Notes under the pieces: generated by a model | What the model was told of the DNA's origin: nothing | What the model saw: only the letters and a program-made list of their open reading frames with translations | The model's database searches: none | NCBI RefSeq assembly: GCF_964204645.1 | Contig: NC_134032.1 | Coordinates: forward strand, 7,931,175 to 7,995,174 | DNA length: 64,000 nucleotides | Source: Tubulanus polymorphus | Lineage: Eukaryota; Nemertea; Palaeonemertea; Tubulaniformes; Tubulanidae | Reading direction: 5' to 3' | Program-made: the position numbers and the translations under genes | In this document: piece after piece, positions 18,219 through 58,817 of the stretch | Position numbering within the stretch: position 1 is the stretch's first letter | Layout: each line of letters opens with the position of its first letter

Positions 18219-21200
18219 ATGACGTCCCAAATCAGAGTTCAAAGTTACCTCGAAAAACATCAAATAAGCGCCTTATTTGAGGTATGAATTTTACTAAAAA
18301 TTTTATGCCCGAAAATGCTACACACACACACAGTCACAGGTATGATAAATTCAATTCAAATCAACAATGATATTTTTCCTTTGATTGTGAGATCTTGGAT
18401 GTCAAAGTCGAAACTGCATGGACTCTATCTAAAACCTTGGTGAAGAGGTGAAACCCCCTAAACTCTCTTCGAGTGTTGATAAACTCCAAATGATCTAATT
18501 TTGCAAGGCCTAACTCCTGTCGACACAGGACGGACCGCTTCCTTCACTTCAGCTCAGCCCCTTCAGCTTTGGTTTCAGGATAAGGTAGCACACGCTCGTT
18601 CAATTTCATGAAAAACCCTTTCCTAGATTTTATGAGTTTCTCCAAATGACCCCTTTTCGGAGAAAATCTTGGGTGATTTCATTGAAACAGCCCCTTTTTT
18701 GCAAAAAGAAGGGAGGTTAAACTATGAAGCATTATAATGAAAAGAATAGCTTTATTTGCATCCTACCGTTCACACATGATCAAAATGAACGACTTTCCTA
18801 TATATGGATAGTTGTAAAAACAACAAAAATTCATCAAAATGTTGAAAATATAACCGTGTTTGTTTACTTCGGGTTTCTCCACGTCTTGAAATTGTAATAA
18901 CCACCGAAAACATGACACAGCCGCAAAAGTTGTATTCTTTGCTGGGCCTTATCAGCAATAAAGACCTAATATATCATTCAAAATGATACACCTGTGGCGT
19001 AACATTGGGCAGCCACATCATTAGGCGCATCGGACAAAACCACTCTCGGAAAGGTGAGCTGGAGACTCTGGGCAACTCTGGGCACAGCTCACGACCGAGT
19101 CGATCAGCCATTTTTACGGTGAAGAAGATACGTGTCAAGTCAAGTTTGAAAGTTAAAAGATGGGTTTAAAAGACACGGTTCGAATCCCGAAACTTCCTCA
19201 TACTGATCCCGAAATCTGATAGGCCTAATTAAAAATTGTCGACATTTTGATTTTTGTCACATATTAGAAATTTATACACCCTTATTTTCATTTTCACGGA
19301 AATTTTCTTATAAAGAACCCCTTTTTTTCAATTATCTCGGGGATTTCTACCCGTGATTGGAATCAATTCTATAACCCATTTCCCGTGCATCCCATATGTT
19401 GAAGAAGTGGTCCGCCCGGGCAATCTACTGTCGAATAACAATTTATGTCGGAAACGTAACGTCTAATGTCGGTTTATTTTAGTCTGACATCAAGGTTTTG
19501 GGATATTGCTCTTAAAATTTTGAACAAATACAGTACCTCAAATTGGTGTTAATACGACCAGTGAAACTGTACTTTGCAATCTAGAAAAATCCATTGTTTT
19601 TATATCCTATATATCGGTACACTGTTTTGAAGCATTGCTAAAACCTCTTCTTTAACTCATTTGAATCAAAGAAAAGAGACTCCGTTTCACGAACTAAATC
19701 AATTTTAACGATATGTTTCCACGCCTTCTATTTGAAATTATTTTCGAATCATAAAAAATCATGGTTCGTATGCATGGCAACTCAGGAAACATGTTGTTAG
19801 AATTTCAAAAATGGCTGATCTTTTCTCATTTCAACAACAGAAATGCAATGCTTCAATACAGTATAAAATGGATATGAAAACAATGGTTTATCTAGATTCA
19901 CAGTTTCACTGGTCGTATTAAGACGAAAATAATTGAGGTAGGCTATATAGGCCTATGTGTTAGAAAAATTAAGCAAAATATCCCAAAAAATTGATGTCAC
20001 ACGAAAATAAATAGACATTAGAATAATACCATATCGGCAAAATTAAGCGGTTTCCTATATTTTCAATGATTTTTTGTTTTGATATAAATTTCCATTTTTT
20101 TTCCCAGGAGTTGATGGCTAAGATTATTCATACGCAACCGGATGATCCGTTGATATATTTATCGGCTGTGATTGAGAGAAAAATCGAAAGAAAGCGCGGC
20201 TCCGTAAGTTTTGGAAGAGATTTAGGCTCTCGAGTTAGGGAAACTAGCCTGGAACTAGCATGGTCCCTGATCTTATAATCCCTTACGCCCCTACCTACCC
20301 TTAATTACCTCTTAAGCCCTGGCCCGACCCTCTAAGACATAGACCTTGCGTAAAAGTCTTCTTCCCCTAAACCCTACCTATTGTGAAGCTTGAATCTCGT
20401 TTTGTTGTACCCTTCCACACCCTGTGCTCACACTGAACCTACTGTTTCTTTATTCTAGACCTTAACCAACCCCTAAATGTAAGGGGGGTCATCCCGATGT
20501 TTGCCGCTACCGATGTTTCCCGCCACCGATGTTAGTACTATAAGCGATGCCCAGATTATTTAAACCTTTTTATGTAATCAATATCAATAGAGAGTGAAAT
20601 GTTTGTTTTGAAATTGATGCAGAAAAGGTTATACGAAATAACAAAAATTAGTTGTCGTTATTGTCGGAAAAATCATCCCGATTCCCCCAGACTATTAATG
20701 AATTCCAGAATCCAATTTCCCAGCCTAAGAAAATGGCCAATCCTTTGTCAAGCAGAAACCCTTGCTATCCTATTCATTCGAATGCAACCTTCTTTATTTT
20801 CTAAATGTATATCAACCCTTTATCAGATCAGGGATTTGTAACAGATTGACAACGATAGTGTGATAGGGTGATAAGATAATCCAGAATTACACGATATAAG
20901 CGGTCCGATGAATAGACAAATATATTAGGCCCCTACACGGTGCACAATTTTTCTAATAAATGATTTTGAAAATTGAAATCATTTATTGGAAAAATTGTGT
21001 ACTCTGAAATATGTCTATTCATCAGACCGCTTATCGCTGATGGCTTTGGATCAGTACAGGGAAACATCGGTACCGGGAAATATCGGTACCGGGAAACATC
21101 GGTACCGGGGAACTTCGGTACGCACCCAACGTAAGGCATACTCTATAACAAATTCGCTGCCACTAATGCAGTAGTGCCTTTCATTGCCACTACTAATTGG

Positions 21201-24200
21201 TACTGGAGCCATAACATTGTCAGCCTTTGCTCGAAATAGACCAATGAGCATTGAGAATGAAGCTGACTTTTTTCACATTGCTAGCCAGTGGGAAACTGTG
21301 TCATTCCCGTGTGCCAGAGTGCAAATATAACAGTGAATAAGAAGGATCAGCCATGGCAATTGTGAAAGAACCATATAGATTCGTAGCCGGCACAAACGTT
21401 TCAACCCTTGCCCTAAATCTATCAGTACCTGATCCTAAACCCTTTGATTATATTCACAGCAAAATTCTCTACAGTTTTAATAAATGTGGCCTTGATTTGT
21501 AGGCGTCTGCAAATCGACGAAGCACCGGTGACCTTCGAGGTGAACGACCTTCAACTGTAGCCTGGGCCAGCGTGGGTAAGATGTTATGATTATTGGTTTT
21601 GCAAAAATATTTCAAAGTTCGAATTTAACGGAGTAATGAGTGAAACCTAATTGGCATAATTTCCATCAATAATGATAACAAATTACTTATTTAAGGGATA
21701 ATTTGATTCAATTATAACAAAAATGTAGAAGAATTGAATGCGGAGGACCACCACTCCATCGAAACATGATCCCCAAAGTGTTGAGGTTTCGCTCTAAAAT
21801 TTCATTAATAATCAGTTTATCTGTGTTTATTAACCCTTTTAAGTTCATGCTCGACCCTAGCTCGAGACCGAAAAACATTGGCTTCACGTTCATGCTCAAC
21901 CGTAGGTAGTGCCCCGGCGTGCGCTGTGAAAAGTGTAAATTATCGTTGTTTCACCTACAGGTTTTCATCATAGCACATCATTAGTTGTTAGATGGCGTTT
22001 CTGTTGATTATTCGCCGTAAAAATTTTTGATGGTTGCAATTCATCGTTTTTGAGCAATTTTGAGTCAAAATTTGTCATTTTTTCGAAATAAATAAGGTAA
22101 AATCATGAATATAGATCAAGTTGATTATAAATCTTTGCTTATGATGAGTTTTTAGACTTTTCAAGGCCAAGTCCTGGCCCCGCCTCTGATGAATCTGACA
22201 AATACTGACCAATGCTATGTTACTAAAATACTCAAACCTGGTATCATATGAAAGGTCATAATATTGTCTACAAACTTTTTTTTCGCTACTAAGCTATAGG
22301 ACTGATAGTTTTTGAACTTTATAGCTTCAAATATGAGTTTTCGAAAAGCGCAACAATGGCTGAAAATAATTCAATTTCTAGGGTAGTCGCAGTGTAAAAA
22401 ACTTGAACTTAAAAGGGTTAAACATCTCTCAGTTTGCTCAGTACAGATCTTGCATTCCAAAAATTTGCATAAACTGGTTTTTGGCTTCATCTATTGATGA
22501 TGGTTTGCCGAGAATAATACGTTCGCTTATTGCTGAAAAATAGCTTCGACGGCCCGTGGTGTGGTGCCTCCTACTGTGTTTTTTTATGCCAATGAATCTG
22601 ATGATAACGTCGGCAATGTTTCTGGGTGTCCACTGAGTAATGAATCGCTGATGTATGAAAACAAAAACAACTTAACCCTTAACCTGCCAGCAGCTTTAGT
22701 GTTAAGTCCTGTGTGTGTCAGATGATTTGCATGTTATTGAAATTTACTCATTAAATCCTCATAACTTCCAAACTAGGCTATTGTATATAGGGCATTGAAA
22801 CTTCACAAAGTAATAGTTTATTGTCATAGCCACGGAATATTGCTGAAAGATTATACATCCGATTTTTGAAAGGGGGGTCCACTTGATGGGGTCATTTTTG
22901 GGGGTCCAGCACAAAAAGACCCCCTTAAAAGTCAGAATACTCACAATTTTGTGTTACATTGTCGATATTCATAAATAAAGACACCGTAGATTACTGAATC
23001 CATCGTTAAAACCTTTATTATGCTTCTCATTAATATTTGAATAATCATCGAAATCCCGAAATATCAAATAAACGGGGCGTTTTTGAGGTAAAAAATCTTC
23101 TAAATATCAAAAGTGGAAATTACTTTCGGGTTTGGATTCTCGAGTATCGGCAGTCGGGGTGCGTTAAGAACTACGGCGAGGCACTTGTGACATAAACAAA
23201 CTTTAAACGCGAGATAGGTCAGGCTGTCGACTACAGTTGCCTACGGCAGTTCCCCAGTGTGTCGACTACTGTCGCCTGCCGCAAGTTAAGGGTTAAGGAG
23301 AAATTGTTATTTCTAAATGCAAAATACTGAACACATTTGATGATAATGGTACATATAATACATATCAAAAAAATTACGGAACGAAACGCCACATGTCATG
23401 TGTGACAGACAGTAGCAAACCTGGTGGATCCTTACTCGTCCGAACAAGCAAGGACACACCAAGTTCGCTAGTAATGATAGGTGGAATCCTCTCAATTTCT
23501 GTAGTAGTGTCGGAAGTTCCACTATCGCTAGTACTGTTTCATGCCGTGATTTATTTATTTGTCCTCTTTGTTGTAGATGGAGGTGTCACCGGGGCTAAAG
23601 ATCGCGGCAACTACGAGAAACCGTGGCAGACGAACAGCAGACGCAAACCACAAACTAAACATTCCCCTCCGGAACTGACTAAACCACGTAAGCGTTATCC
23701 CCATATGACATCATCACATTTCCGCCGCGTACACCTTTTCAGAATTGATTGCTCCGACCGTAAATCCCCCTATGACAGCAAATAACCCCTAAAGGCCTTT
23801 CCAGGAAAGATGACTGTCTACTCTGTCATAGTACTACTATGACATAGTAGACAGTCATCTTTCCTGGAAAGGTCTTTAGGGGTTATGTCATGATGAGGGG
23901 CCATGATGGCAGACAAAGCTATAGACCTTTCCAAAGAAGATGGCTGCCTTCATAAATCCCTTAATGACCTCATATTGTCTATTCAAACAGATACAGTTAA
24001 ATCTCGGCCATCGTGGAATGCCGATAATAAAGTTCCATCTGCCGACTTCGATGAACTGTGGAATATTCGCACAGATGGCACCACGGGCAAAACTCGCCAA
24101 ATGACTAGAGACAGGTCAAGGTCGCGAGAAAGGGCTGCGGTAAATGTCTGTTTGATATCTGTTTGATATACAAGACGAAATGATAAAGTATGAAAAGTTG

Positions 24201-27200
24201 ATTCGTTTGGTTATTTCAGGATGATCCGAACGCTTTGACGTTTCAGAGTTCCGGTTATTACGGTCCGGTACGACCCCATTACGGAGATCCACTCTCTGAT
24301 GAGTTACCAATCCAGCGTACAAGCAAACAGAACCAAAGCGACAGAAAATCAGTCGTGTAAGTTACATCAATTTTTATATTTATTTCACGGAAAAGCAAAA
24401 CGATAAAATCAAGGAGAAAAATATTTCAAAAAGAAGGGAAAAAAATTACAAAGATTTGGAGCACGTTTTCCAATGTTGACCACCCATGCAAAGCCATTAA
24501 AGGATGCTAGAGTAGGCGCCCACTGAAAGAGAGAGAATATGGAGAGAAATGAGAAACCTTCACCATTCCAACACAATTTGGAAAATGGGAATAGTGTACA
24601 GGGATGAAAATTTCCCGCTTTTTGGCGGTGTCCCGCTTTTTTGTGATGAGAAATTTAAAAAAACCGAGCTTTCCAAATCGTCCCAGATCCTTCGAGAAAT
24701 TGAGGGCTGGAAGGTTTGCTGTGTCTGGCATTATGTTTCGGCTCACAAAACTGAGTATTTTAGCATGCTTGAAGGTACTTCGCCCAAAGATTTTCGTTTA
24801 TGCTGCCATCTGGTATTGCCAATATAAACTACTGTAAAAAAATAACCACTTCGTGCTGCCATCTAAAGAGTTGAAACAAGGCTGTTGAGGAAATCGTGCT
24901 GGGTACCCCCACTTACTTTGAGCTTAGTGCCTATGTTGCAGTGTAGCTGCAATTTCAGTAATTTACAGAAATTTTCATCAAAAGTCCCGCTTTTTTCATA
25001 ATCCCTGGTTTTCATCCCTGGTTTAGCTTTTTGACTTAATTGTATGTCGATGAAGTCTTCATAATGACTATGGACACCCGTCCGGAAATAACATGTTCAC
25101 AAAATTCCGTGCGTCAAAACTCATATTTTGTAACGTCCGCTTTCGTTGTGCAATTAGTGCCATTTAAAACGTTACCGATCAAAGATGAAACAGTGAGAAT
25201 ATGAAAAATTCCAATTACAAAGTAATTAGCATTGAAAGTTTGGTATTTTTAGCCCACTTGGGACTTTAGTCCCAGCGGGCTATTGCGTTCACTTTTCGTC
25301 CGTCGTCCGTCCGTCCGTAGACGGAATCCAGTTATTTTGGGAAGTTTTGAAGACGCTTCAAGGTAACGTCTTGATATTTGGGTTACACATGCTTCTACCC
25401 TAGACACATCTTCAGCCCAACTCGCCCTGTCAGAATCAAGATGGCCGACTGGCAGCCATTGTTGTTCGTCAAAATCAGCACTTTTTACACATTTTTGAAC
25501 TTTTTGAGGGAAATTTTGAAGACGCTTTGATCAATTTACCTTGATCTTTCGGATATATGTGAATCCCCCCAGGGCCCATCAACATAACAAAAATTGGGTC
25601 CGTCGGATTCAAGATGGCCGTCCTATGACCTTTTTAGTGCCCAAAAATGTTAATTTTGGCCCGAATTCTGAGTCCTGTAGCTTCCTACTGGTTTGCCATT
25701 TCTCATTACAATTTGTGATGGGTATTCTTTGGAAAGGGATATTTTATACCTGAGACAGGTATTTTTCATCAGCCAATTATGACGCAATTGGCGGCCATCT
25801 TGGTGTCACCAGTACTCATTCGTAAGTTGGAAAAAGTTTTTCCACATTATATTGATACCTAAGCGTATTTTGCTACCACAATCAATTAGAAAGTTGTAGC
25901 TCATAACGTGTTCTATGATTGTGGTGAGTTTCAAGGTAATTGGATTTCGTATATGGCCACCAGGGGGCGTTGAATAATACAATATCTTAGCATTTCTTTA
26001 TTATATACGTACCTATGCATATTTTGTAACCACAATCAATTGGCAAGTTGTAGCTCATGACATCATCTATGATTGTTGCGAGTTTTAAGGACATTAGTTT
26101 TTCTATATGGTCACCAGGAGGCGTTGAATAGTAGAATAACTTAGTATTTCCTTATTATATTGGTACCTAGGCATATTTTGTTACCATGATCAATTGCAAA
26201 GTTGTAGTTCATGACATGTTCTATGATTGTGGTGAGTTTCGAGGTCATTGGGTTTTGAATATGGTCACCAGGGGGCGTTGAATAGTAAAATGAGTATTTC
26301 CATATTAAATTGGTAACGAGGCATATTTTGTTATCACAATCAATGACAAAATCGTAGCTGTTGACATGTTCTATGATTGTGGTGAGTTTCAAGGTCATTG
26401 GTTTTTGTAAATGGTCACCAGGGGGCGTTGAATGTTGAAATTGTTAGATTGTTGAGCATTTGAAACCACTTCCCAAGTGGGCATGGTGTCCCTGGACCCC
26501 TAGTTTCACAAAAAAATATGTTCCATCCAAAAATGCTATTATTGCTGTTCCTTACATGGTTACGATGTAGCGTAAACGGACGAGTGGATTGGACATTTTT
26601 GTACCAGTCTTTTTGTCTAACTTCAATCTTGTACAGCTTACTGGCCAACTTTTTGCCAGTTACTGCTATTATTAGCAGTTTGGACTTATGCTGTTAAATC
26701 AGTGAGTCAACCAGCATTGATATGTGTCCTGCCTGAATAACATGGTTTCACTAGGATTCAAATCCCACAACCTCGCGGTTGTGAGTCAAACCCATTATCC
26801 ACCATGCCACAGGACAGGACAAGTGGACATGGTGTCATTAATAGGATACAGGAGTCGTACTTATTTGCTGTACTTTCCGTACAATTTTTGGATGTTCTGT
26901 TCTGAGAAATGATTCGGCTGAAGACATGGTTGAATTCCTATATTTTTCATAGGCCCTTTTGCAGGCCTGAATATTAACACTGACACAATGCGCGCGTACG
27001 ACGTGTGAGTCACGCGTGCGTGAAGTGCGCCGCTGGGCTGCGAACTGATGAAAGGAGTGAAATAGAATGTAGTTGCAAAATAGATTGGTTGTAAATAATG
27101 ATCTCAAATTAATCGATGGACTGCTCAATTCTTGGTTTTGACAACCATTTGGGGGCATAAGAGTGAAACTGTCGGGAAGTGATTTTTTTAGGTCATATCC

Positions 27201-30200
27201 ATTAAGCAAATCATGAAATTTTTGGTTAACGATTTAAGGTAAGGTAATAGAATCAGTTTGCCCGAAAAATAGGTTATTAATACTGCGAACTGGTGATTAG
27301 GATGGAGTAGTACACAAATAACTTCTTATATCGTTGGCGTATTGGAAGGGATTTACATCCCGCACTGATTGGAAGGGATTAACATCCCGCACTGAAGGAC
27401 AACTAAAATATTGGTTTTTTTGCACGTTTTGTGTGTTCCTTTGCGGTACTATGTTCAGAGTAGGCATAGAATGGTATTGCATTTAATGGATTATTCGAAT
27501 ATGATTATCTCAAATTTCAAAATTGTTTCTGGATTCTTATGTGCCCGGTATTGTTAAGCATAACTGTAGTATTTTTGATAGATTCTGAATTCATGAAAAA
27601 GCAAGACAATTGTACAAACTGAAGCTACATTGACCGCCGCCGGTCCTTGTATATTTTCCCAGATTGTCTGGAACTTTTAATTTTCTCGACGAAGTGTCAA
27701 GGTCCACGAACCTCTTATTGAATTGTAAGATTCCTGGTCGGGTTTTTCTTTCAAAGTTTTTCCTTTTCCATTTTGTCAACAAAGATAATTGATGCATTTC
27801 AGTGCGATAGTGCCCCTAATATTGCCTTTGTGGACATGAAAGTACAGGTTTGGGATGTGATAACTTCTTCAAAACTGGCCCGTGAGTGCACGAATACACA
27901 TAATATTGCATTTTTGGATATGAAAGTGCCCTTTTGGGATACGACAAGTTCTTCAAAATAGGCCTCTGGATCGGTCCCTACCACTAGCCATACATTCTTC
28001 TTCGTACGCGTAGGCCTATTCGTTTCCCGCTGAATATTTCCTGATTTTCCTATTCAGAAGCAGCAAATTAAAAGGTCAGAAGAATCAAGCGAACCGCCAC
28101 CGGTCGCAGTTGAAGGATTTAGTCGCCAAGCAGACGGCCGCCGATTCCGGAATCGAAGACGATTCCCGACCGGATTACGACGTCGATTACGCGGTCGACG
28201 TGATGGGTACGTTTGATTTACGAGAACCTTTAATAACCGGTGATAGTTTCAATTTGAAATATTTTCACACGGTCTGAAAATTTCATTTTATCATAGAAAG
28301 CGCTGACGACTTGCGAAATGAAGGGGTTCGCAATGTGAAGTCCACAGGAGTCCGATTGGCTAAGGTAAAAGATTTTCCTCGCATTCATTCGTCTTTAATG
28401 ATATGGATTACCCTATTAGCACTCAAACATTCACCCTGCCTTATACTCCTCAAGGCGCCCGAATCTGCCCTGGCTCTTCTTACGTCTGCTACACAAAAAC
28501 AGTTACAGTGGGATTCGAACCCAATAGCTTATGATAAACTAGACTCCCAAGACATCGGTACTCCGTACAGAAATCAACATGTTCCTACCGGTATTACAAA
28601 TTCTGGAGTATTTGGAATAATGAACATGACAGATCGGCTTGCTCACCTATATGTGCTCACTTATTTCCGAAAAAGTCTGGATGAATTTCGGGGGGCATAA
28701 AAGGTCACAATTTTGGTGGCCCACCTCATCAAATCTTATATCATGTAAAAGCCTTCACTATTTACTACAAGATAATAAATGTGGATGGATTTTCCCCTGA
28801 ATTTTGTGAGGAGTGATAGACACTACATAGTGAAATCCGTTTTTATGGGTTAATCAGGTTTTACAGCATCTTCAAAATCTCGTAAACCTTGATTGGAATA
28901 TGATCGGGATTTACTATACGGATCAAACACGTTTTACTCTACGTACCTCAGATTTCTAATAACGAATGAATTTCATCCGTCCCGCATGATCCCGATCACT
29001 GAACCTCAGATTTATGATTTCATTGTTCCGAAATTCATTGAATAAGCGAGGCTGGTACTTCAGGGTGGCGACTGACCTGGAAAACTCAAGGAATAAGGAA
29101 AAATCAGGGAAAACTCAGGGAATTTGACAGATTTTGCGGAAAAAATCCAGGAAAACTCATGGAATTTTGTGTTAAGGCCTTTAACATGGATAAATCAGAG
29201 AAAACTCAGGCAATTTGTAAATTGGAGGAAAGTGGCCACCCTGTGCTTCATTGATTAATAAATGGAATAATTGATTAATTGCAGAAGCCTGCTCTTCAAA
29301 AGAAGGTTCGTTGTGATTTAAGTAGAAAACTTATCATATTTTTTTAACACCCACTTGCGATTTGACCATTTTTTGCACCATGGCTTTTTTATGACTAATA
29401 ACAAAGTTGAAATTTGATTTTTTAACACTTCACTGGAGTTGCATTTCGATTCATTATTTCGTAGTATTTCCATTGTAGTATTTTCAAGGTAATTTTCTCG
29501 TTTTTTTAATCGTGTTTCTTAAAGAAAATGCGCATTAATACTTTTGATTGTAGTCTGCAGGTTTAATAGACTCCAGACTCTATTCTCTTACCCAAACCTA
29601 GATGGGCCTATGGGCAATGGAAATTATTAATTGCTTCAAGAAGACCTTCGGGAATATATTTTGTCATCTATGTTCTCTTTTGAAATGAAAATTGAACTAA
29701 CCCTGGGTTTATGTCAATACCAGTCTATAAAACTGGCTGACCCCTAGAATTTCTGCCCCCACTACTTCACAAAAACCAAGATATTAGTTGGCTATGAGTT
29801 GTTTTGTATATTTTTGGTAAGGCCTTTTTAAGATCTGACTTTTTCAGCCAAACCAGGCTGGAGAAAAATTCATGGAATTAATTTCTCAAAGTTCAGACAA
29901 AATTTAGATCTTTCATAGAATAATCACTAATGCATTGAAGTATTTACACTTTTAGTATTTCTGGCACTTTTGATTAAATTTACGTTCATTTTAACCATTA
30001 GATAATCATTTCTTCGTATACCTAGGAACTAATTGATAATTTGTTCACAATATTTTTTTGCCAAAGATAGTTTTGAAATTTATGTTTTGTTTTTGCAGAC
30101 GTTCAGCGCCGATCCAGAGCCGTTAGTGAGAGTCAGCATCTGTTCACGTTGCGCTCGCGTGGTTACCGGTAGCGACCCGGTTACCAATAACCAACCTGAA

Positions 30201-33200
30201 AACAATGGAGGTGAATGTCGTCAATATCATGGTTGCCACCTAATATCACCCTACGATGTCATCAAATTACCCATAGACACCGGCCACCTTCATAAATCTC
30301 CCTCAGCGACACTATATAGACACTAACAACAAGGACCCCCTTAAACATCACCCGATGCCATTGTCAATTTACTCCTATTGATATTTCAAGAAAAGATGGC
30401 TGCACCCATACATCGCCCTATGACATCATCAGATTGTCCCAGACACAGAAATGGTGGCTGCCGTCATAAATCCTCCCATGATATCTTTGAATTACCTCTA
30501 TAGACAATTCCCGAAAAGTTGGCTGCATCTGAGCATTCTATGACAATGACATCATCAAATTATCCTTGTAGATGCTCTGTCATTCGATCAAACCTGAAGC
30601 CACAAAATCCTGCCCCAGTGAGCATACTTGCTGGGGAGGATGTCTAGATGCTAACAGAAAACATGTCTGCCTACGTAAATCGCGCTATGAAATTGCTTAC
30701 CTCTAGTCTGGACGGAAATGTTTCTAGAAAAGATGACCGCCTCCATGTATTCGCCCTATGACATCATCGAACTAAGCCCTATTTTCCTGACTTATTCTGA
30801 TATTTCCAGGTGAGACTTCGAGGTCATCAGCAGTACGGTTTACTCCTACTCCGGTCAGTGACGATGAATTTGAAAGTGTCTCGCAGGTGTCTGGACCGGT
30901 ATGCATAGAGTATTGAATAACTCAGGGGGGGGGGCTGGGGGAGTAGACTCAATAAATGGGGGAAAATGATCTTGCTTTATTATCGGGTGGCCACATACCT
31001 GCAAATCAAGCAAATCAGAGAAAAAAGTCTGTGAATTTTCTTTTCATTGAAAATGGTATGTTCAGATAAAATCAAACAATTGCCATGTACATATATATCT
31101 CACGTATTTGTGTGTTTATTAATCGGATTCTTAGCAAATCAAGTCGGGGAAAACAGGGATGTCAGGAATAGTCGAGGATAAGGCTCGTCAAATAAATGTG
31201 GCCACCCTGAATCAGACTCCGTTTACTGTGGAGTCGATTGCCTAGGATCATCGCGTGCCAATTTTCTGATTCTAATAAAGACCCATCTCTGCTCCAACTA
31301 ACCCACAATTTAGGTGCCTCAGGGAGAAAAATTGATCCCGCGAGATCCGAGGCAAGCAGAGTCTACTAACGTGTATGAAATTATCTCAGTTGACTCATTC
31401 AGCTGTTTCCTCTCCCGATAAGCTGATTATTTTATTTATACATGTTTTAGCGTCGACCGGTCTGGCAAGGCGACACCGATGGTATGTAGATATGAATTTA
31501 GATTTGAATCAGAAAATTATCTTATTATCTTGAATTTTGAATCTATTTTCTTACGAACATATATTTTAGCCGAAAGTCAAGCGCTGTCTCCGAGGAAGGG
31601 TTTACCCATGTACGAGTCGTCCGGTGTGCCCCATAAAGGTCGCCCTATGTATAAGTAAGTATCGACTCATTTCGGAGAACTCGTTTGTACTCAGGAATTT
31701 CGCTATGTGTGGTGTCTATTACTCCTCAGAAAATTCAAGGGGAAAATACACATTTATTACGATATACAGAATAGCTTATTTCCGGTTGATTTTCATGTAC
31801 TACGAGTTTGTGTCATTTTGTTGCAAATGCACTATGCTTTCATATGATATGAGATTTCACGAGGTTGGCCACCAAAATCGTGTCATTTTTTCCCCGAAAT
31901 TCATCCAGATTCACTTGCATCAGTGAGTGCGCGGATCTGTCATGTTCATACTCCAATTACTCGAGAATTTCAAATAGGAAGATATTGATTTTTGTACGGA
32001 ATTTTGACGTTTTGGGTGTCTAGTTTATTTTTGTTCTAAACTAATGGGTTTGAATCCCATTTGAACCGTTTTTTGTGTAGCAGACAAAAAGAGTCAGGGC
32101 GGATTCGGATGGCTTAACCCTTTCAGTGTGTCTACACCGCAGTGCGGTGTACGAATCAGTGATGGGTTTTGCTAGTACACCGCACTGCGGTGTATTGAAT
32201 TGTGTATTGTATTTAATTAGTAATTACTAATTATCTCTCTTGAAAGATGGCAGCACCTGTCAAACATAGTGAAATATTAGTAACTAACGATATACTGCGC
32301 CAGGATGTAGACGCACTACAGTGGTATTCCCGTTATTCAACACACTAGGGCATCCTCGCTTGCCAGGGGTCCGGTATCGCTCCCGAACTGGCTTCCACCA
32401 GCCCCCTGGCCTCACAACTCGCGATTTCATTACTGGCGCTTTTGCGCATGACGTCATATATCAACACGCGACAATACTTCCGCGTTCGCTGATTGGTCCA
32501 TTTACCGGGAAATTCCATAGATGCCTAATGTCGTTTGTAACAAGCGCTGTGATTGGCCCGACCTGATTCTGGTCGGCTAGTAACGACTCCAACGACTCGT
32601 GAGGTCAAGGGGTTCGGGGAACGGCTTTAGCAGAGTGGGTTCGAATCCCTTGACGGGTGAAGATGACACTAGGGTCGAATTTATCAGAATTTTCAAATTA
32701 TCTTCAGCACCATAGGGTATTAATTAGCCAGCACTGAAAGGGGTTAAGGAGTAATAGGCGGTGCAGATGCGGGTGGCTTCAGGGCTGACGGGTTAACTAT
32801 TAGTTCTTTCAGTTGGTTTGTATTCTTTCTGTTTACGCATAGTTATTTTATTTTTCTAATTTCCAGGCAGACATCTCGCGATGAAAGCGTAGTTTCACTT
32901 CCGGTGAATGCGTCCACTCCAACAGCACCGGCTGCTGACAGTGTTGTTGCCACTGGGAGTATCGTCGCTGGTCTGCCTCCGGTTGCCCCGGATACCAGTC
33001 GCACAGACGACACGTCTCTACCTACCGCGAAACCCGTTTGGTCTCGTAAAGATTCCGTCGACGTAAGTTTTGAACTTCCAGATAAGATTGCTGCTTCAGT
33101 GAACAGAGCTGCCAACTCCACCTGACTATCTGTATTCGTTACTTATGTGTAACGAGAAATATTGATTTGATTTGTTTGATGCATACAGTAATATCAAAGA

Positions 33201-40870: not shown

Positions 40871-43800
40871 TTAGCATTTCGATAACAAAGGATCACTCTC
40901 ATGATTATGTCTGTCTACTGACGGTGACGTAGGTTTAACAGCTGCACCGATGCGACCGTACTTATATTCGTAAATGTACAATCCTAATAGTAGAACACCC
41001 TGAAAATATAATTAAATGACCTTAATCAAAAGTTTCGAATGCATTGTTGTTATAACATCCTCCTTCAGCAGGGATTCAAACCTGATGAGATCGCTAAGCC
41101 GAGCCTGACACAAAATTCTGCTACGGGATCATTCATTTATTAGGCTAAAAAAAATTGATACCTTGTTTCTCCGCTCTGCTGAGCTTAAATGTTGACCCGG
41201 CCAGCCGCCTATCTACCCTATACATTACTTTTTTAAAAATCGTGATCAATTTTACCATAACAGACCCGGCCGCTATAGAAATGAACTGTTTATAAATTTT
41301 ATCATATTTTACAAAAATGACCCGGCCGCTGCGGAGAAACAAGGTATCATTTTTGTTTAGCCTTACGTACGCATTAGGGGAGGTAAACTAAGACTGGAAA
41401 AAGCCAGGCTAGAATAAAACGTAATTTCTGATTGGCTCATAATGACATCATCTAAGCTGTGCATGTACATAGCTGCCCACACGGGCTTGTGACAGGGTTT
41501 TGTACCATGGCGAGTCTCGAAGCAATCAGGTTCGACTCCCTACCACGGGAGGATTTTTAGAAAATTTTCAAATTTTTAGAAAATTCCATTAATTTCTAGC
41601 CAGATATAGCTATCTATCAGTTATAGCATTATCATGCTATCATATATATCATTATCAAAGTCCCGAGAAAAGAAGTGAAGGCTGACTTGCTTAATGCAGC
41701 AAATCTATCAACATTTTGCTAGCCTAGATTGTAGGCTAAAAAATTGAAAAACAATTTTCAAAATTAACCGTCCAATTAGGAGAAACAAGGTATCATTTTC
41801 TTTTTAGCCTTATGGTAAAGCCCATCCATCTACACCCCAATCTTGCTTCAATTAGACCCTGGAAGTTGATTTCACTGGATGAGACAAATTATCGCCTAGA
41901 AAGTGAACAGATTTTCTAGTGCTCCGAAGTTCATGATTAGGAGGTTCCACTGTAAAAGAACCATAAGTTATACCAAGAATAGTTTTTTTACCGTAACAAA
42001 AGAAGCAATGGCAGCATAGGTCATCGCCCAATCAAATCCGACGTGGTCCAGTAATATTCCACCGAGTGCGGGGCCTAAAAAATCCCTGAAAAATATTCAA
42101 ACTTAATGTACACTGGTACTCACTCATACTGCATGTGATACTGGAAATGAAGGATAAATGTACACTCACCCTAAAGCATAAACTGTACCCCATAAAGATG
42201 CAACACTAGCATAAGTTGCAAAATTTTCTTCGAAACCAGCCAATCTGGAAATGAAAATCAAAGTTAAAGGATCAACCCTTTCGCTGCGTGCACTGCCAGT
42301 GCAAACTGCATTTTCCAAGAAAAATTTTGAATTTTTGATTTTATTTGATACAAAAATTGTCTCACATGTGTTTCTTTAATATTTGCATCATGCGAATTCA
42401 AGCTCAAAATCAATAGGTGCATGACGTTTGAAAACGTCATACGCACACAAGGTGCCACTCGCATGAGTTTTTCAAGGTCATGCGCAGCAAAAGGGTTAAA
42501 CCTCTAAAACAAATCTATAAAACTAGTCCCAGGGGTCATAGTTCAACCTGATATTTAAAATCGGCCACAGGGGCTGAAGTTAAAAAAGGTAATTAAAACC
42601 AGCCCAGAATTTATAAATTCAACTGGTATACGAGACCAACCACCACGGGTTTAAAAGCCGATTGAAACCAGGCCAGGGGAACCTAGGGGAGAGAAGATAT
42701 TCTATCGTACTTACTCAGCCGAGTCAAGAATGCTTTCAAACGACGGGACGAGAGCTAAACCGGCGGTTACTCCCAGAACCCCCAATGTTAGTATTATCAA
42801 CCATAACTCACTGAAACAAGAAAAAGAAATCCACATAATTAACAATTGAATATTAAGAGAAATATTATGACGGTCTATATCATTCGGTCTAGCTCGGAAT
42901 GCAGTGTTCGGAAAACACAACTTACTCTGTTTGTATAAAACTGAAGACAGGAGCAGGTCCCAGGAATGATAACGTGATGGCAGTGGCGAAAAATCCGACA
43001 GTTAATAGGATTTTACTGTCTTTCTGTAGATAATGAGATAAGATCATAATATATACAAGTCGTTAACTAATAAGTTAATGTCAAGAGCAAAGAAAGGGAG
43101 AAAGAGGAGAGAGGAGGGAGTTCGGGAAGAGAGAGGAAACAGAGAAGAGAATAAAGATAAAATGAGTTCATGATTTGTTCTCGTATTAACTAACACGAAA
43201 TCTTGGTGCACTGCATAGTATTTAAGCGTGTTCAACTTACATGATATACTGGATTCACTGGATTCTAGGAAAATTCCCCCGGACAATTGCCCCCCCGCCC
43301 GAAGTAAATTTTAACCCTAAAGTAGCACATATACTAACTTCTGATAACCCTAAAGTAGCACATATACTGACTTCTGATAAATTAGACTAACTAACTTAGA
43401 ACTAACTAAATTTTGACTAGCTAACTAACTTTAGCTAAACTTTATTAAACACTAAAACTCATTCCAATAAATTAGTCACTAATAAGTGGACTAACTAAGT
43501 TTCCTTTGATTTGGTAAGTGGATTATAATTACTTGAGGATGGATTTTAAAGGTTTTGATCTGCTAAAGTAGCACTATAACTAATTCAGATAAATTTATTG
43601 ATATATGTATTTAGGTGGTGTTAATCCAGGTTGTCCTGATAGGGATATACGGATACATGGTAATTGGGTTTTCCCTATGACTCACTAGCACATGTCAGTA
43701 CAGTCAATACTCCTAAATAATACTTTTATATATGTATGTTCTTGATAATGACATCACTGGGATAGCCCTTCAGTATCCAACATTGACCTTGGATACTGAA

Positions 43801-46800
43801 TGGCTTTCCCAGTGATGTCATTATCAAGAAACAAGGTCAAGCAACAATTAGTAGAATGGGAAAAAAAATCATTGAAATTTTGCTAATTTTCTCCCAGTAC
43901 GTGTACTTCAAAATGGACGAAAATGTCCATTTCCCACCTAATGACAAAACATCAGGTGCATACATATATACCCAGTGGTTACAATTTGTATCAACAAGAG
44001 CTGATAAAAACGGATCAACTCATCCTGATAAGGGGGAAAGTGAGAGGGGGATCGTGAACAAGAATGGATAGGGAGTGTGCAAGGGTGAAGGAAAAGGGAA
44101 TGTAGAGGTGGGAGCAGGAGAAAAGAGAAGACGAAGCCAAGGGCTGAATTTTTTCGAGATTCGTAGATTACCGTTTTCTCGGCGAGCCATCCCCATAACG
44201 GCGACGATATCGCGTAACTAGCCGATGTCAACAGAAACAATAACCCGACTACGCTGACGCTGAGGTTAAACTAAAATAAAATAAGATATAGCTATATAAA
44301 TATTTAGATAGTTCCGATAAACTAGACGATCAAATTCAAATAATTGCTTAGACTTACCGATCTGACGTGTGGTTCGAGCATCGGGTCCAACATCGCCCAA
44401 ACGGCGCTGATTATAGTTATCGAAAATAATACTACGAATATCGATGGGATTTTCAGCAGATTCACCATCGGCAAACTGACCATATTGCGGTCCTCTACAA
44501 AGTATTAGTCGTTAAGAGATTAACTACCACCGTAAACCTGTGCGTCGGTTCGAATCGGAACTGGTTAGGGATCAGTTGTACTAAGAATAAGGAACAGTTA
44601 ATCATATGATAACTGAGATAGTGCCAAATGAAACTTAATTGTTAATATGTCAGTTAGCCATGGGTTAACATCAACCTTTAAGGAACTGAGCCTAGCAGGG
44701 GCGGATCCAGCGAAAGAAGAAAAGGCATTCTTGAAAATCAGCTGCGACAAAGGCCACGTGGGGGGGGGCACCCTCCATGTTAAATATTCTTGAAAAATAC
44801 ATCCGTAAAGAAGCAATTTCTGAGAAGATTAATGTCAAATTTTCAGTGACATTGACATTAGATTGGCTCTCAGGTTAAAACTGGTCTATCAAACCAGCAC
44901 CTGGATGGTAATTCAAATTCTCATTTTGAAATCGATTTCGTTTAACACAAAAATTTCGAGAAAGATATTCCGCGGATATTCCAAGGAATCGTAAAAAGAA
45001 TCTTACCTACAAAATCGGGAATTAGAAAATGATTCAAAATAACGACTAAAATCATGAATCCTCCGATAACGGCGAATGGCAAATAAAAGCCACCAAGCTG
45101 AAAAATTCAATTCTATAATCTAGAGATCTGATGAGTTAAAAAGAGTCAACACAAAAATTGGCAATCGACTTACATACCCCGTAAAATAGGCCACCGACGG
45201 TAGGTCCTACCATCAGCCCTATACCTACACATGTTTCTGTGATACCCTAAAAATATCATCAGACAGAAAATTGAATGAATATGGTTAGGTGGTCTCTGAA
45301 CTCGATTTGTTAGGTTCAAGATGAACTCCATCCACGAAATCCCTCGCTGTGATATCAAAATCATGGAAATTCCAACTAGAGTCCCAGGGAGACAATGCCC
45401 ACTTGGAATGTGGTTTAAAATGCTCAACACTCATAGAACAGGTCATAAGCTACAACTTTGCAGTCGATTGCGGATACAAAATATGCATAGGTACCAATAT
45501 AAATAGACAAATTGTATATGAATCGTTGATCAAAAATATCACGACTATCAACTACAAACTGTTTCCTCATAAAACCACGAATGAGGACTGATGACACTCA
45601 GATGGCTGCCAATTACGTGATTATTCACTAATCGCAAAACCCGTCTGATATGCTAAAGATCCCTGCCCAAAGAATACCCTCACAAATTTCAAGGAAAAAA
45701 TAAATCATTAGGAAGCTACAGGTCTTGGAATTCTTGACCTTTTGGGTACAGAAAGGTCACAATACGGACATCTTCAGTCCCATCGACCTAGTTTTTCTAA
45801 TGTCGACGGACCCAAGGGGGATGTGAAACATCAAGATAATTGATCGAAGCGTCTTCAAAGATTCCCTGAAAAACTTCACAGACAAACAACTTCAATGGCC
45901 ACCAGTCAGCCATGTTGATTCATGCCGAGCCAATTTTTGGGCTGAAGATGTGTCCAGGGTAGATACCCGTAGCAACAAAATATCAATCCCTTGTAGCGAG
46001 TTCAAAACTTCCCTGAATAACTGGATTCCATCTGCGGACAAAAGTGATTGCATTAGCCTGCTGGGGCTTAAAACGATCAAATGATGGCTCCGTACGAGGG
46101 ATCGGTTTTGGTATCAGCTAAGAATCAGCTCGATCACGCATGAAAACATCGTAGATATACAAAAGTACTTACAAAAACGAACGAAATATTGTCCGGATAT
46201 AAACTGGCCGTCAATACGAAGCTAGCTGTTGTTTGAGCCGTGCAACCGATCGCTAGAAATATACGCACGATAAAACACATCACGGCGAATATAACGCCTC
46301 CGTCGTCGGAGGGAAGATCGGCGAGAAATCTGAAAAAAAAAATCACATTCGTAAATCAAATTTAGAAAATACCGGTATACATCGGGGATCGGTTTTCGTG
46401 GTATCCCGAGGGTGGAAGATTTTTAGTCCAGATACAAAAAACTGATGTGAAACCATCCCAACTGGATACAATAAATATCCGATTTTACCAATAGGAGATT
46501 GTTATTTTAATCCTTTCCTATGTTTTCTTGACTAGAAACTCAAATCAAGGCAAACTGGAAAACCTTGTTGTCGTGATTATGATACAGCTTGGAAGTAATA
46601 TTTCCGACAGAGCGATTACTCCAAGGTCGAATAATGTCCAGTTCACCAACCCTGAGTCTGATTCTGAAGTCAAATCATAATTTAACCTAGCCTTCCTCAT
46701 ATCTGAGTCCGCGCCGTGGAACTAGAGAGTTGGAAAGGGGATTGATTTGAATAAGAGGGTTTAATTTTTAACGTACCCGAAACAAATCGTGCAAACTCCA

Positions 46801-48850
46801 CCTAACAGTAATCCGCCTTGATAGAGAAATCTCGATCCGGTATAGTGTATCTAAATTGTTAAACCACGAATTGAAGTACAAGCTAGAATAAAATCCTTCG
46901 AATCCTTGGATAGATCCGACGACGAAATCAGGCATTAAATCAAAACTGGATTCAAATTCTTACCAGTTTTCCGAACAACGGGGTGGTTAGACATTGCACT
47001 AGAGCGAAGACTCCGAAAATCCAGCCGGTGATCGAGTTCGTTAAACCTTTGTCATTAGCCTGAAAAATAAACATCAACATTGTAGATCGAAAATCAACTG
47101 CATTCTTAAAATTGGCTTTCCCGAACCAATCAATCACATTAATGATGTGACTTGACAGTTGGTTTTTGCGCTAGTTGAAATCAGTTCATTTTCAATATTT
47201 GAACAGGATTCTAGACTCGTGAATTGATATCCTACAGAGCACCAATGACACCCGGTGGATCCTCACTTGCCACAGGTGGATCCTCACTTGCCACAGGTGG
47301 ATCAATGATACTAGTAACACGCGGAGGATCTTCACTTGCCACAAGCCGAATCCTCGCTTACATCAGTCGCACAGAGAAAAAGCCCATTAATTTCTCAAAA
47401 TCCAAACGAGCTTCGAATTAATATCGAAAACATCGATTACCTCGCGTGGAAAGAACGGTCCGAGCACCGACAAACAGATGTAACTTATGAAGTCGCTGAG
47501 GCCTAAACTCAACATGACGCGGCGTTGCGTCGAAGTCAGACGCCTGAACGAAAACGGTTTGTATTCGTCGTCCGTATCACGCGACGATCCGGCAACATTC
47601 TCCGACGACCCGGCGGCGGTAACCCCCAACAACTCGGCATCGTTGTCCTGGTACCCGCTATCGATTGTCTGGTAATCGTTAGACTCGGTAAAGTCGTTGA
47701 ATATGACGCACGTTCGACCGGCGCGATGATTTTTACTCGAGAATTCCTCGTTGTCATCGCGTGGTCCATTTATTGACCGTGCGACCGAGCCGTAGTAGTT
47801 ATCGCTAAAATATGGCGCCGACTTCGACACCTGTTTATTTCTGTCGTCCGTTCCATTGATTGTGTTTTTGCTGTTGCGAATAGCGTAACCCCGTTCAACC
47901 GGATCTGAAAAGATGTTTTTAAAATTAGATCGTAAGAGCCAATTCTGGAAAATTAATATGAAATAGATATAGTCAACCAGCGATATACTGCCCTCCTAAA
48001 TACCGCCACCCCTGCCTACCACAGGTGACAAATTTTTGATCCAGTTCCTTTCCAAAATTGGAGATTACGCGTAGCCTATATGAATTTCGAGTGTAAATTA
48101 GTTTATTTCCTATAGTATAATACCAAAAATACATGAATTTTTGATAATACGCAATGAAAGAACTGCGAGACTGTATCAGGTTCCTTACAGATCGGTCATT
48201 CCTGAATATAAGGAATCCATATTACTTTCATATCCCAATTACAGTAGACTCCTCCTAAATCGGTACTGTTTATCTCGTTAAACCATTCGTTCAGTGGTTT
48301 TGTAAGCAAATTTTTATCCTTCACAACTAAACTTAATTCTTATTTGGTAACTGCTGAATTAGTATTGTACCGAATTGTACCGATTAAGGAATAAGTTTTC
48401 TGTACTTTATTGTACTATATAGTTTTCTGTACTATTCTGTTCTAACTAGACAAACGTTTATGTACAACTATATATAACGCCAATCAATTTCCGTTTTATA
48501 CGTAGACGAAACGGAAAGTAAACGTTACCGACGTTAAGCTGATTCTAAGCTGTACCCGTAGCTGATTCTTCCTATTTACAGCAAAATATTTTCACTCCGG
48601 CACACGGGAATGACACAGATCCTGATTGGCTGGCAAATTGTGAACAAACTCAGCTTCATTCTCAACGCTCATTAGTCAATTTTAAACAAAGGCCGACTAT
48701 GTAACAGCCCCAGTGGCAAGAATATATCCATAGCAGCACTTGGGGGTAGCACCGTATTATCGAGCCAGCAGTGGACCCGTTAAAAATCTAAAATGACAAA
48801 GTGTAATAAGTTCCTTGTAGGCTTACCCACCATTCTTTAATGAAGACATT
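40871..48850 (-). CDS. SLC18B1: SLC18B1-like MFS transporter, 14 exons
   Basis: This is a twelve-helix major-facilitator protein related to vertebrate SLC18B1, a vesicular polyamine transporter; the substrate here is inferred by homology. Exons (minus): 48832-48850, 47441-47904, 46964-47059, 46777-46850, 46173-46329, 45178-45246, 45007-45097, 44358-44494, 44172-44270, 42926-43023, 42715-42810, 42170-42244, 41992-42074, 40871-40999; about 561 aa. Seen in order: a hydrophilic N tail of about 130 residues; SDFISYICLSVLGPFFP (TM1); GWIFGVFALVQCLTTPLFGK; GIGLMVGPTVGGLFYG; SYAISSPLWGWLAEK; LGPAPVFSF; LGVLGVTAGLALVPSF; PALGGILLDHVGFDW; and an acidic C tail ending DPLLSKC. The tail is like vesicular dileucine (D/E-xxLL) sorting signals. 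Exon 1 (MSSLKN) is chosen on phase and is less certain. Joining exons 12 and 13 by canonical sites leaves one extra base. Confidence 0.88.
41057..41554. mobile_element. Long-TIR element, MULE-like family, with nested insertion
   Basis: The left end ATCCTCCTTCAGCAGGGATTC and the inverted right end GGTTCGACTCCCTACCACGG..AGGAT match the ends of 54828-55164. The middle is split by the palindromic MITE at 41140-41365. It lies in the last intron of the transporter. No target duplication was found for this copy. Confidence 0.45.
41140..41365. mobile_element. Nested MITE with AGGCTAAAA..TGATACCTTGTTTCTCC ends
   Basis: Left TAGGCTAAAAAAAATTGATA..CCTTGTTTCTCCG and right CGGAGAAACAAGGTATCATT..TTTAGCCTTA are inverted. 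The interior has several 'gacccggccgc' motifs. A truncated relative lies at 41732-41812. Confidence 0.6.
42272..42499. mobile_element. TTAA-type MITE, CCCTTTCGCTGCG ends (transporter intron)
   Basis: Left TCAACCCTTTCGCTGCGTGC and right GCGCAGCAAAAGGGTTAA form TIRs. The left target reads TCAA instead of TTAA, probably one mutation. 228 bases, no coding content. Confidence 0.55.
43737..43832. repeat. Near-perfect palindrome, 43-base arms
   Basis: GTTTCTTGATAATGACATCA..GGGATAGCCCTTCAGTATCCA is mirrored by TGGATACTGAATGGCTTTCC..TGATGTCATTATCAAGAAAC around a 10-base centre. It lies in the transporter intron between exons 9 and 10. Confidence 0.75.
45350..46110 (-). repeat. Dispersed element R2, inverted copy (transporter intron)
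   Basis: The minus strand matches parts of 25253-26500 in the same order: the body ('gacggaatccag', 'agtcctgtagcttcct'-like sequence, 'gttttatgaggaaac') and one ~150-base unit ending near 45360. It fills the intron between exons 5 and 6. Confidence 0.55.
48565..48725 (-). repeat. Dispersed repeat R3, copy 2 (transporter intron 1)
   Basis: Inverted and diverged relative of 21175-21345 (shared 'gctgag/attctcaacgctcatt' and 'cggcacacgggaatgacacag'). Confidence 0.5.
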
Positions 48851-55164: not shown

Positions 55165-55174
55165 GATCTTCCCC

Positions 55175-56709: not shown

Positions 56710-56713
<4 letters not shown>
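55175..56713. other. Intergenic, nothing recognised
   Basis: AT-rich sequence without supported exon, RNA gene or delimited repeat. Confidence 0.45.

Positions 56714-56783
<70 letters not shown>
56714..56783. repeat. (TA)n microsatellite, about 35 units
   Basis: Uninterrupted AT dinucleotide run of about 70 bases, 0.65 kb upstream of the bHLH start codon. Confidence 0.9.
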
Positions 56784-56786
<3 letters not shown>

Positions 56787-57341
56787 TCAAAGTGAATCAC
56801 GTAGTGCTATGAGTTCTGAAGGAATTTCGTAATAGACGCTGATCGTGATGGTTCAATATATTTGTGCACGATCAGCATCTCTGATATGGAATTAAGTAAC
56901 TGCAAGAGTCTTGCGTCACCGTCGTATTGTTTACTTTGATTATTTCGGTTTCATTCCGTATTTACATTATAAGTAAATGATCGTTTCTGTAATTAAATCA
57001 TCGCCCCGATTGAGCTACGTTATTAAGCGTACGTACATAATATTGATCATATTTATACACGTCATGACACAAACATGAAATCAAAACCCGAACCTAATCA
57101 AACGTCCGAGTTAATTTCTGTCAGGAGTGTAAATGATATAGGTGTATATCACACGTGATCCAATTGCCAATAACATACGATTGTTGAGAACTAAAGAAAA
57201 AGGAAATTATTTCGATATCTGCATTCTCGTATGGAGGCTAGGTTTTTCTCTACTTTCATTTATCACTACCGCACCTGGCATTTGTTATTCTATCATTAGA
57301 AAGTGTTTCAAGTAATTATCATTTGGTTGATATCCTTGGGA

Positions 57342-57349
57342 TATTTAAG
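57342..57349 (+). promoter_or_regulatory. Possible TATA-like box of the bHLH gene
   Basis: TATTTAAG lies 90 bases before the chosen ATG, a workable distance with a short 5' UTR. E-box type hexamers CACCTG (57272) and CACGTG (57152) lie upstream. All are inferred from sequence alone. Confidence 0.3.
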
Positions 57350-57438
57350 CGAAATTTAGTTTATAGACAATACAGTCTTGCGGCAGCTCTGCATAATTGG
57401 ATTTATACCATAACTTAGTAAGTTCCTTAGACAATAAC

Positions 57439-58817
57439 ATGACGAAGCGAAAGCGATTAACCGAACGTTTGCCTATGAGAAAATCAAAATGTGACGAACA
57501 GAACGAAGTTCACGATATCGCGGGTGTTGATGATAATGAATCTCCATTCGTCCGCAATGCCGCCAATGCACGAGAACGAGCCCGAATGCGAGTCTTGAGT
57601 AGAGCTTTCGCGAAGTTGAAGACTGCTTTACCATGGGTTCCTCCGGATACGAAATTATCTAAGCTGGATACACTGAGACTGGCGTCATATTACATCGCGC
57701 ATCTGAAAGGTTTACTCGATAATGGACGTTGTGAAGTTATCCATTCCTCTGGACTTAATTCTATCCATGTACAGCTGATGAAATTGGTGAGTTTTAAAAG
57801 AAAAAAAAAATTTCTTCATTAAATCGTGTACAAAAAAAAACATGTAGTATTTTTACAGATTGCTGACACCATGATAACCAGTGGCTAACAGCTGAGTCTG
57901 CATTTTGTTGATATCCATCCCCATCTCTTTTTGGTTTAATCGATATTTACTGTATATTCAATACGTCAATATCTCCTCAATCCGATAATTGGGAAAGAAG
58001 GAGTGCCCGATGGTCGTACTAATAGAACTGACTGATTCTATAGCCTTCGTTTCAATCATCGGATTAGCACCATCCGTATAATGAAACAGATCATGCTTCT
58101 ACAACAGGGTGCACTGTCAATAAATATTTCGTGAACGGATTGTTTAGGTCCAAGCGAACTGAATTGCCATTTTGTGACGCATATGAGTTTCCGTGCAGAA
58201 TTTAGTAGAATAAGATTCAAATGTGAAGGTCATTATATGCAGTTTTTTTATTGTAGTTTGGTATATACAGTTTAATGAAAATATCCGTTTATTTGCAATG
58301 TTAGATTTGCAATGTGAAACGATGCATCATTTTAAGCGTCAATCAGGGGCTACAGAAAAATCTCGAGAGCTTTATTCTATCTGTTATGGAGCAAATAACT
58401 TCACAACCTCATTTTTAGAAATTGGTTCCCAAATGACGACACCCTCCCCCACCCCAGAGGGGGGGGGGTAAATTTGCTCTTATCGGTTTGCGTACTTGAT
58501 GATCTTGGAAAATCTGAACGAGCGAGCTGCAACAAATTCTGTATACCGATCAGCAAGCAGAGCGTTATTAACTTCGAACAAGTCAAGCACCAATTAATCG
58601 AATGAATATGATTAAAATGTACCTTGGCCAGATCTGAAAAATAAAGAAATAATTTTCGCTGTCATTGGTTGGTTCACTTATTGCGCTCACCAATATTCAC
58701 TTTGCTCTATTTCAGAATTGGCCGTTTTCATGTGGACCAAATCTACGACAAACTCCAAAAAGCAGATCAACGTTGCAGAATAAATCGCAAACGGCTAAAG
58801 TAAAGAAAACTGATTAA
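57439..58817 (+). CDS. bHLH transcription factor, TCF21/musculin type, 2 exons
   Basis: A nuclear DNA-binding factor of the capsulin/musculin (TCF21/MSC) class II bHLH group, which bind E-boxes with E-proteins and act in mesoderm and muscle. Exons 57439-57786 and 58716-58817, phase 0, 149 aa. The basic region and helices are [39 protein letters not shown] and [15 protein letters not shown] (residues 39-93), nearly identical to vertebrate TCF21. Residue Glu46 and the following arginines are the E-box contacts. TKRKRL at 2-7 is a possible nuclear signal. The C-terminal NWPFSCGP in exon 2 corresponds to the family's NLTWPF motif, supporting the splice. ATG 57439 was chosen; the frame upstream is open to a TTG only. 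The vertebrate TCF21/MSC split cannot be applied: it is likely the single pro-orthologue. Confidence 0.93.

Follow-up and report, generated by a model that had tools for sequence, protein, structure and literature searches.

Linkage of C8orf34, SLC18B1 and TCF21/MSC homologues in Tubulanus polymorphus on a contig that carries further families of a human paralogon

In the genome of Tubulanus polymorphus, a C8orf34 homologue on the forward strand, an SLC18B1 orthologue on the reverse strand and a two-exon TCF21/MSC gene on the forward strand follow one another within 41 kb, each at the position where the original prediction, made from the letters of the same DNA, had placed it. In human, C8orf34 and MSC are presumably both on 8q13, megabases apart, and SLC18B1 and TCF21 both on 6q23 with RPS12 and EYA4 between them. 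The contig that holds the three genes (NC_134032.1, hereafter C8) carries further families of the human 1p/6q/8q/20q paralogon, and for this reason it very probably descends in large part from the chromosome behind that paralogon. Common ancestry of human 8q13 and 6q23 through one chromosome is well supported; the origin of both regions from one ancestor by duplication had been proposed from the window, and the additional families on C8 now support the shared chromosome ancestry on which that proposal depends.

Identification of the three genes

The window, which is the whole stretch of 64,000 nucleotides analysed, corresponds to C8:7931175-7995174 in an assembly of 267.8 Mb and 77 contigs, and contains no run of N. 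The gene features are listed in Table 1.

Table 1. Coordinates of the three genes in the window (position 1 is its first letter)
Feature	Position	Strand	Basis
C8orf34 (DUF5586) homologue	18219..33124	+	8 exon pieces; open frames and splice signals, PF17824, human C8orf34
SLC18B1 orthologue (MFS transporter)	41992..47995	-	twelve exon pieces; MFS_1, PDB, genome search
TCF21/MSC exon 1 with bHLH domain (57553-57708)	57433..57786	+	PF00010, E 5.8e-17; GT donor after 57786
TCF21/MSC exon 2 (NWPFSC... to stop)	58716..58817	+	in phase; acceptor CTATTTCAG before 58716; stop 58817

The C8orf34 homologue starts with an ATG at 18219, and its first exon (18219-18281, MTSQIRVQSYLEKHQISALFE) is followed by a GT donor and, in phase, by exon 2 (20108-20203). 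The later pieces, at about 23.58-23.69, 23.99-24.14, 28.06-28.21, 28.30-28.36, 30.10-30.21 and 32.87-33.12 kb, come from a by-eye reading of open frames and splice signals up to approximately 33.1 kb, and the last of them was outside the model used for searching. Exon 3 is out of phase with exon 2, and therefore the model is incomplete and at least one exon is probably missing. When the joined pieces were compared with Pfam, they matched PF17824 (DUF5586), which we take to be the C8orf34 family, at E 1.1e-17 and 64.7 bits, above the curated cut-off of 26.6. The pieces also aligned with human C8orf34 in two co-linear segments of 66 and 41 bits (46/140 and 22/64 identities), and the motif ICSRCAR lies within the alignment. 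Because searches of the genome match single exons, some genes may go unnoticed, as happened in the genome-wide search with the PF17824 profile, which returned zero matches and missed even the C8orf34 gene of the window.

The transporter matched MFS_1 at E 1.6e-38; the coordinate 47995 marks the limit of its first open frame and not an assigned start codon. Against solved structures, the joined pieces scored best with an SLC18B1 construct (9d7u, 249.9 bits), the next being VMAT2 with 58.4 bits. In the genome search, 12 of the 14 matches belonged to the window locus and the other two reached 25.8 bits and 29% identity (these counts are lower bounds), and among the matches found the window locus is the only close SLC18B1 copy. 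Assignment of the transporter or of the bHLH gene to some other paralogue had been named beforehand as evidence that would speak against the proposal. For the transporter, another paralogue was rejected because of the 249.9 bits for SLC18B1 versus 58.4 for VMAT2 and because the genome search found no second close copy, and its orthology to SLC18B1 was upheld by the structure scores and the genome search alike.

The second exon of the bHLH gene carries a WPF motif, and a C-terminal WPF is presumably typical of the TCF21/MSC subfamily. Since this exon is in phase and stops at 58817, the end coordinate given earlier for the linked region was correct. The HLH domain of the window is identical in 46/52 residues to human TCF21 and likewise to human MSC, and the best of the other human domains compared was TCF23 (32/46). 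Of the 54 HLH matches found in the genome, 40 were fetched, and among the 39 other than the window domain the next best had 27/51 identities to it; TCF21/MSC or TCF23/24 appeared among the two best references of only one of these 39, a partial piece on C7, at a chance-level score. A tree was built from 52 rows, namely 16 human domains and those 36 pieces that remained of the 40 after four incomplete sequences had been set aside. With few columns and modest support, it grouped the window domain with TCF21, MSC and TCF23/24 (80/97) and paired it with MSC (86/75). Taken together, identity and tree place the gene nearer to TCF21/MSC than to TCF23/24, TCF15, HAND or TWIST. On the 46/52 identities and the tree, the assignment to a wrong paralogue was rejected and orthology with TCF21/MSC was sustained.

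Closeness of the three genes

Between the three genes, no further cellular gene was recognised among open frames of at least 70 residues, a reading which genes with short exons could escape. The flanks were inspected over 38 kb on each side, the inner 8 kb as open frames of at least 60 residues and the outer 30 kb through a composition filter, and no gene of 8q13 or 6q23 was recognised in them by either reading. The composition filter kept 31 frames across fifteen stretches of C2 and C8, and 8 of these were searched against Pfam; the 3 C8 frames among these 8 gave no family match.

C8 accounts for 16.7 of the 267.8 Mb, or 6.2% of the genome. For two specified genes to lie no more than 41 kb from a third has a probability of 9e-8 over the whole genome and of 2.4e-5 when all three are given to be on C8, both values being uncorrected for the fact that the triple was picked after the window had been read. 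The closeness on a common contig, of about 2e-5 by chance, and the stretch between the genes in which no other cellular gene was recognised among frames of at least 70 residues would be expected if the cluster were an ancestral micro-block kept together by shared cis-regulation, for example by TCF21 enhancers located in introns of SLC18B1 or C8orf34. We regard such a block as unlikely, because in human C8orf34 and MSC are far apart and SLC18B1 and TCF21 have other genes between them, because the triple was chosen post hoc on a contig rich in paralogon genes, and because short-exon genes lying in between could have escaped the reading. Given this post hoc choice and the many paralogon genes on C8, the adjacency need carry no extra meaning; it may be plain macrosynteny that reflects nothing beyond common chromosome ancestry, and it probably has no functional reason.

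Further paralogon families on the same contig

C8orf34, MSC, TCF21, SLC18B1, SULF, STAU, TPD52 and HEY are, we assume, located in the same human paralogon arms. PMC6585022 gives the human positions of NKAIN, KCNQ and NCOA in its Table 1 and mentions EYA in its Results.

Eight families of the human 1p/6q/8q/20q paralogon, with markers of our own choosing, were searched in the assembly. The best match was on C8 for Staufen (STAU, 0.23 Mb), SULF (6.35 Mb, a single match of 31 bits), TPD52 (9.06 Mb), NKAIN (10.14 Mb) and KCNQ (15.35 Mb, with a second, weaker match on C1), and in the same list of markers the window is placed at 7.95-7.99 Mb. The number on C8, 5 of the 8 families searched, compares with an expected 0.50 and corresponds to a binomial tail of 4.5e-5. 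Since genes are reshuffled along a chromosome over periods of this length, and since the window had been read before the triple was chosen, the three genes could be considered unrelated neighbours whose human homologues fall in two regions by coincidence. However, the presence of additional paralogon families on the same contig, at the tail just given, makes such a coincidence very improbable, and chance neighbours were rejected on these grounds.

Among the HLH matches, 3 of 54 were on C8, which is an ordinary number (3.4 expected), and all 3 are from paralogon families. They include NCOA at 5.70 Mb (35/49 to human NCOA2) and HEY at 16.26 Mb (25/26 to human HEY1). When HEY and NCOA are added to the markers together with BHLHE22 and MYC, which are on C2 and count as misses, 7 of 12 are on C8 with a tail of 2.2e-6; this value is indicative only, as the four bHLH markers were recognised with their positions already known and 40 of the 54 HLH matches were read. 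A single locus was found for each of EYA, SULF, TPD52, NKAIN, Staufen and SLC18B1 (the last with its two weak matches in addition), and one locus per family is what is expected of a genome without the vertebrate duplications. These single loci speak against a vertebrate and the presence of TBPL1 speaks for a bilaterian; a COX1 search of the assembly found no match.

EYA and its companions are on other contigs

The six EYA matches, the best of 62.6 bits, are all within 5.7 kb at C2:26.94 Mb, and all are below the whole-domain cut-off since the exons match singly. A search for EYA on the scaffold of the window had been proposed as a check; EYA is on C2 instead, with TBPL1 and HBS1L, and the profile search of the genome found no EYA match on C8, leaving a small chance of a missed second EYA. 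TBPL1 had been included as a marker for C8, and in the genome search its best locus was at C2:27.28 Mb, 0.33 Mb from EYA by our figure. This gene shares 99 of 151 residues with human TBPL1 and 67 of 147 with TBP. An HBS1L exon lies about 8 kb beyond TBPL1, 0.34 Mb from EYA (91 bits with HBS1L in the PDB, 62 for the next match), WDR55 (438.6 bits in Pfam) and an ITPA-like gene adjoin TBPL1, and a CDKAL1-like and an MRI1-like gene, both named by recognition, are near EYA. Dispersed TBP-like genes were also observed inside an apparent Maverick/Polinton-like element.

Farther along C2 are BHLHE22 at 28.23 Mb (50/51 identity), 1.29 Mb from EYA, and MYC at 29.09 Mb (33/52 identity), 2.14 Mb from EYA; BHLHE22 has two more close relatives in the genome, one on C6 and one on C1, both of them OLIG-like. 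For MYB, likewise a marker for C8, the best match was at C11:5.78 Mb, with 68% identity over two exons. The counterpart of human 6q23 thus consists here of a C8 part with SLC18B1 and TCF21 and a C2 part with EYA, TBPL1 and HBS1L. Relative to the present genome, the human neighbourhood is composite, with EYA, TBPL1, HBS1L, BHLHE22 and MYC on C2 and MYB on C11. The window had been described as a direct snapshot of the state before duplication, and this description is too strong, since EYA and its companions TBPL1 and HBS1L are on C2 and MYB is on C11, away from C8.

Origin of the human 8q13 and 6q23 neighbourhoods

We infer both the direction of change and the history of duplication, and with considerable confidence favor the explanation that the linkage of the three genes reflects macrosynteny deeply conserved among animals. 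The ancestral chromosome behind C8 would have been duplicated twice in the vertebrate line and would have given rise to the human 1p/6q/8q/20q paralogon. Genes seldom pass from one chromosome to another but are freely shuffled inside each, so that C8orf34, SLC18B1 and TCF21/MSC would have stayed linked here. After the duplications, alternative loss in the line leading to human would have kept the pair C8orf34 and MSC at 8q13 and the pair SLC18B1 and TCF21 at 6q23.

The location of EYA and its companions can be explained in either of two ways, between which one genome cannot decide: two ancestral chromosomes were mixed before duplication, or a segment left C8 in the present lineage. The second has close to an even chance in our estimation. 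According to it, EYA, TBPL1, HBS1L, BHLHE22 and MYC were ancestrally together with TCF21, and it was in the present lineage that the segment passed from C8 to C2. The C2 genes are all within 2.1 Mb, as would be the case for one transferred segment, no vertebrate fusion is required, and the full picture originally drawn would survive for the ancestor. On the other hand, the block is not a clean one, since CDKAL1-like, MRI1-like, WDR55 and ITPA-like genes are among the neighbours, and we take CDKAL1, MRI1, WDR55 and ITPA to be outside the gene set of 8q13 and 6q23.

The other explanation, to which we give a little less than an even chance, is that a C8-like chromosome (C8orf34, SLC18B1, TCF21/MSC, SULF, TPD52, NKAIN, STAU, NCOA, HEY and KCNQ) and a C2-like segment (EYA, TBPL1, HBS1L, BHLHE22 and MYC) were mixed before the first vertebrate duplication, that human 6q23 and 8q inherit the mixture, and that the two are unmixed in the present genome. 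It is consistent with the clustering on C2, where EYA, TBPL1 and HBS1L are found within 0.34 Mb and BHLHE22 and MYC at the distances stated above, and with the human locations, which are 6q23 for EYA4, TBPL1 and HBS1L, as for TCF21, 8q12 for BHLHE22 and 8q24 for MYC. The enrichment itself is weak, in that 4 of 12 markers are on C2, which makes up 11.9% of the genome (tail 0.045, or 0.08 for 3 of 9). All four human EYA copies are, on our understanding, inside the paralogon; therefore, if EYA was ancestrally apart from TCF21, the join must predate the first duplication. PMC7269912 infers fusions of linkage units, with one pair possibly joined before the first duplication, which favors this mixing. 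However, most of the fusions in that paper are dated between the two duplications, and for a fusion of that age EYA would be expected in only two of the four copies.

A reading that joins early mixing with the micro-block, in which 6q23 and 8q13 are a mosaic of two ancestral bilaterian chromosomes (C8orf34-SLC18B1-TCF21/MSC, SULF, TPD52, NKAIN, NCOA, HEY and STAU versus EYA-TBPL1-HBS1L, BHLHE22 and MYC) that came together ahead of the first duplication and are unmixed here, with the 41-kb triple as an ancestral micro-block, seems improbable to us.

Whichever account holds for EYA, conserved macrosynteny remains our preferred explanation for C8 itself, and with this contig a well-studied paralogon of vertebrates gains a reference that has not undergone duplication. 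The question also becomes sharper, namely whether EYA, TBPL1 and HBS1L were neighbours of TCF21 and SLC18B1 before the duplications or were united with them in the vertebrate stem. If the join is common to all four human copies, it would mean that a chromosome fusion is older than the first duplication.

Comparison with known systems

No report of linkage of C8orf34, SLC18B1 and TCF21 was found in the open-access papers searched, judged by titles and the beginnings of abstracts. Genomic regulatory blocks, a form of conserved metazoan microsynteny, likewise have a developmental transcription factor beside unrelated bystander genes; the triple of the window differs in being known from one species and from gene positions alone.

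The paralogon itself is already published (PMC6585022). The human tetra-paralogon (chromosomes 1, 8, 20 and 6 or 2) has families in common with C8, including NKAIN, KCNQ and NCOA, whereas C8 is a single unduplicated chromosome without EYA. In PMC6585022, which deals with the overlapping 1/2/8/20 paralogon, segmental duplications are favored over whole-genome duplication. PMC7269912 describes conserved bilaterian linkage units that are mixed in vertebrates. Descent of 8q13 and 6q23 from one source agrees with both papers, PMC6585022 dissenting on how the paralogon arose. C8 also resembles the chordate and bilaterian linkage groups of PMC7269912, in which genes whose orthologues form a fourfold paralogon in vertebrates are found on one invertebrate chromosome.

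Genes flanking the C8orf34, SLC18B1 and TCF21/MSC homologues

Receptor-like sequences were found on both sides of the triple formed by the C8orf34, SLC18B1 and TCF21/MSC homologues, and the downstream one is read in an uninterrupted frame. The EGF-repeat pieces probably belong to one gene, and at their 3′ end a weak match to the cystine-knot/DAN domain, below the cut-off, was observed. For the ADI1-like gene, the piece at 13614-13844 of the window matched ARD with an E-value of 9.3e-30, and the remaining exons were assigned by recognition. Near EYA on contig C2, the fetched stretch L049 contains an MRI1-like gene (IF-2B, E 5.4e-46), which shares the methionine salvage pathway with the ADI1-like gene of the window.

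Features in the window and elsewhere in the assembly
Feature	Position	Strand	Evidence or remark
GPCR-like piece	window 3582-4225	+	Srsx, E 1.9e-5; upstream of the triple
Reverse transcriptase-like frame, 396 residues	window 4722-5912	-	LINE-type by recognition
ADI1-like acireductone dioxygenase gene	window about 10700-14980	-	ARD match for one piece; other exons by recognition
EGF-repeat pieces	window 59565-62815	-	adjoin TCF21
Rhodopsin-type GPCR frame	L045:700-1743	+	7tm_1, E 1.9e-17; downstream of the triple
TBP gene	within L044 (C4:19900900-19905200)		E 1.6e-33
MYOD-like bHLH genes	C1:1052581-1060111		neighbouring pair
TWIST-like bHLH genes	C10:5547988-5558430		neighbouring pair

TBP genes in a putative mobile element

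A profile search of the whole assembly gave 41 matches to TBP. Near-complete matches to the first repeat numbered 12, lying in uninterrupted frames of 177-221 residues and distributed over eight contigs (C1, C3, C4, C5, C6, C7, C8 and C12), and several TBP matches on different contigs had identical scores. In the stretch fetched from C4 (L044), the TBP gene is adjoined by an integrase with a chromodomain and by a weak P-loop ATPase-like gene. A second stretch, on C8 (L043, C8:7784200-7788700), contains open frames resembling those of L044 in the same order, as judged from the open frames only. The TBP-bearing loci look like a Maverick/Polinton-like mobile element that carries its own TBP gene.
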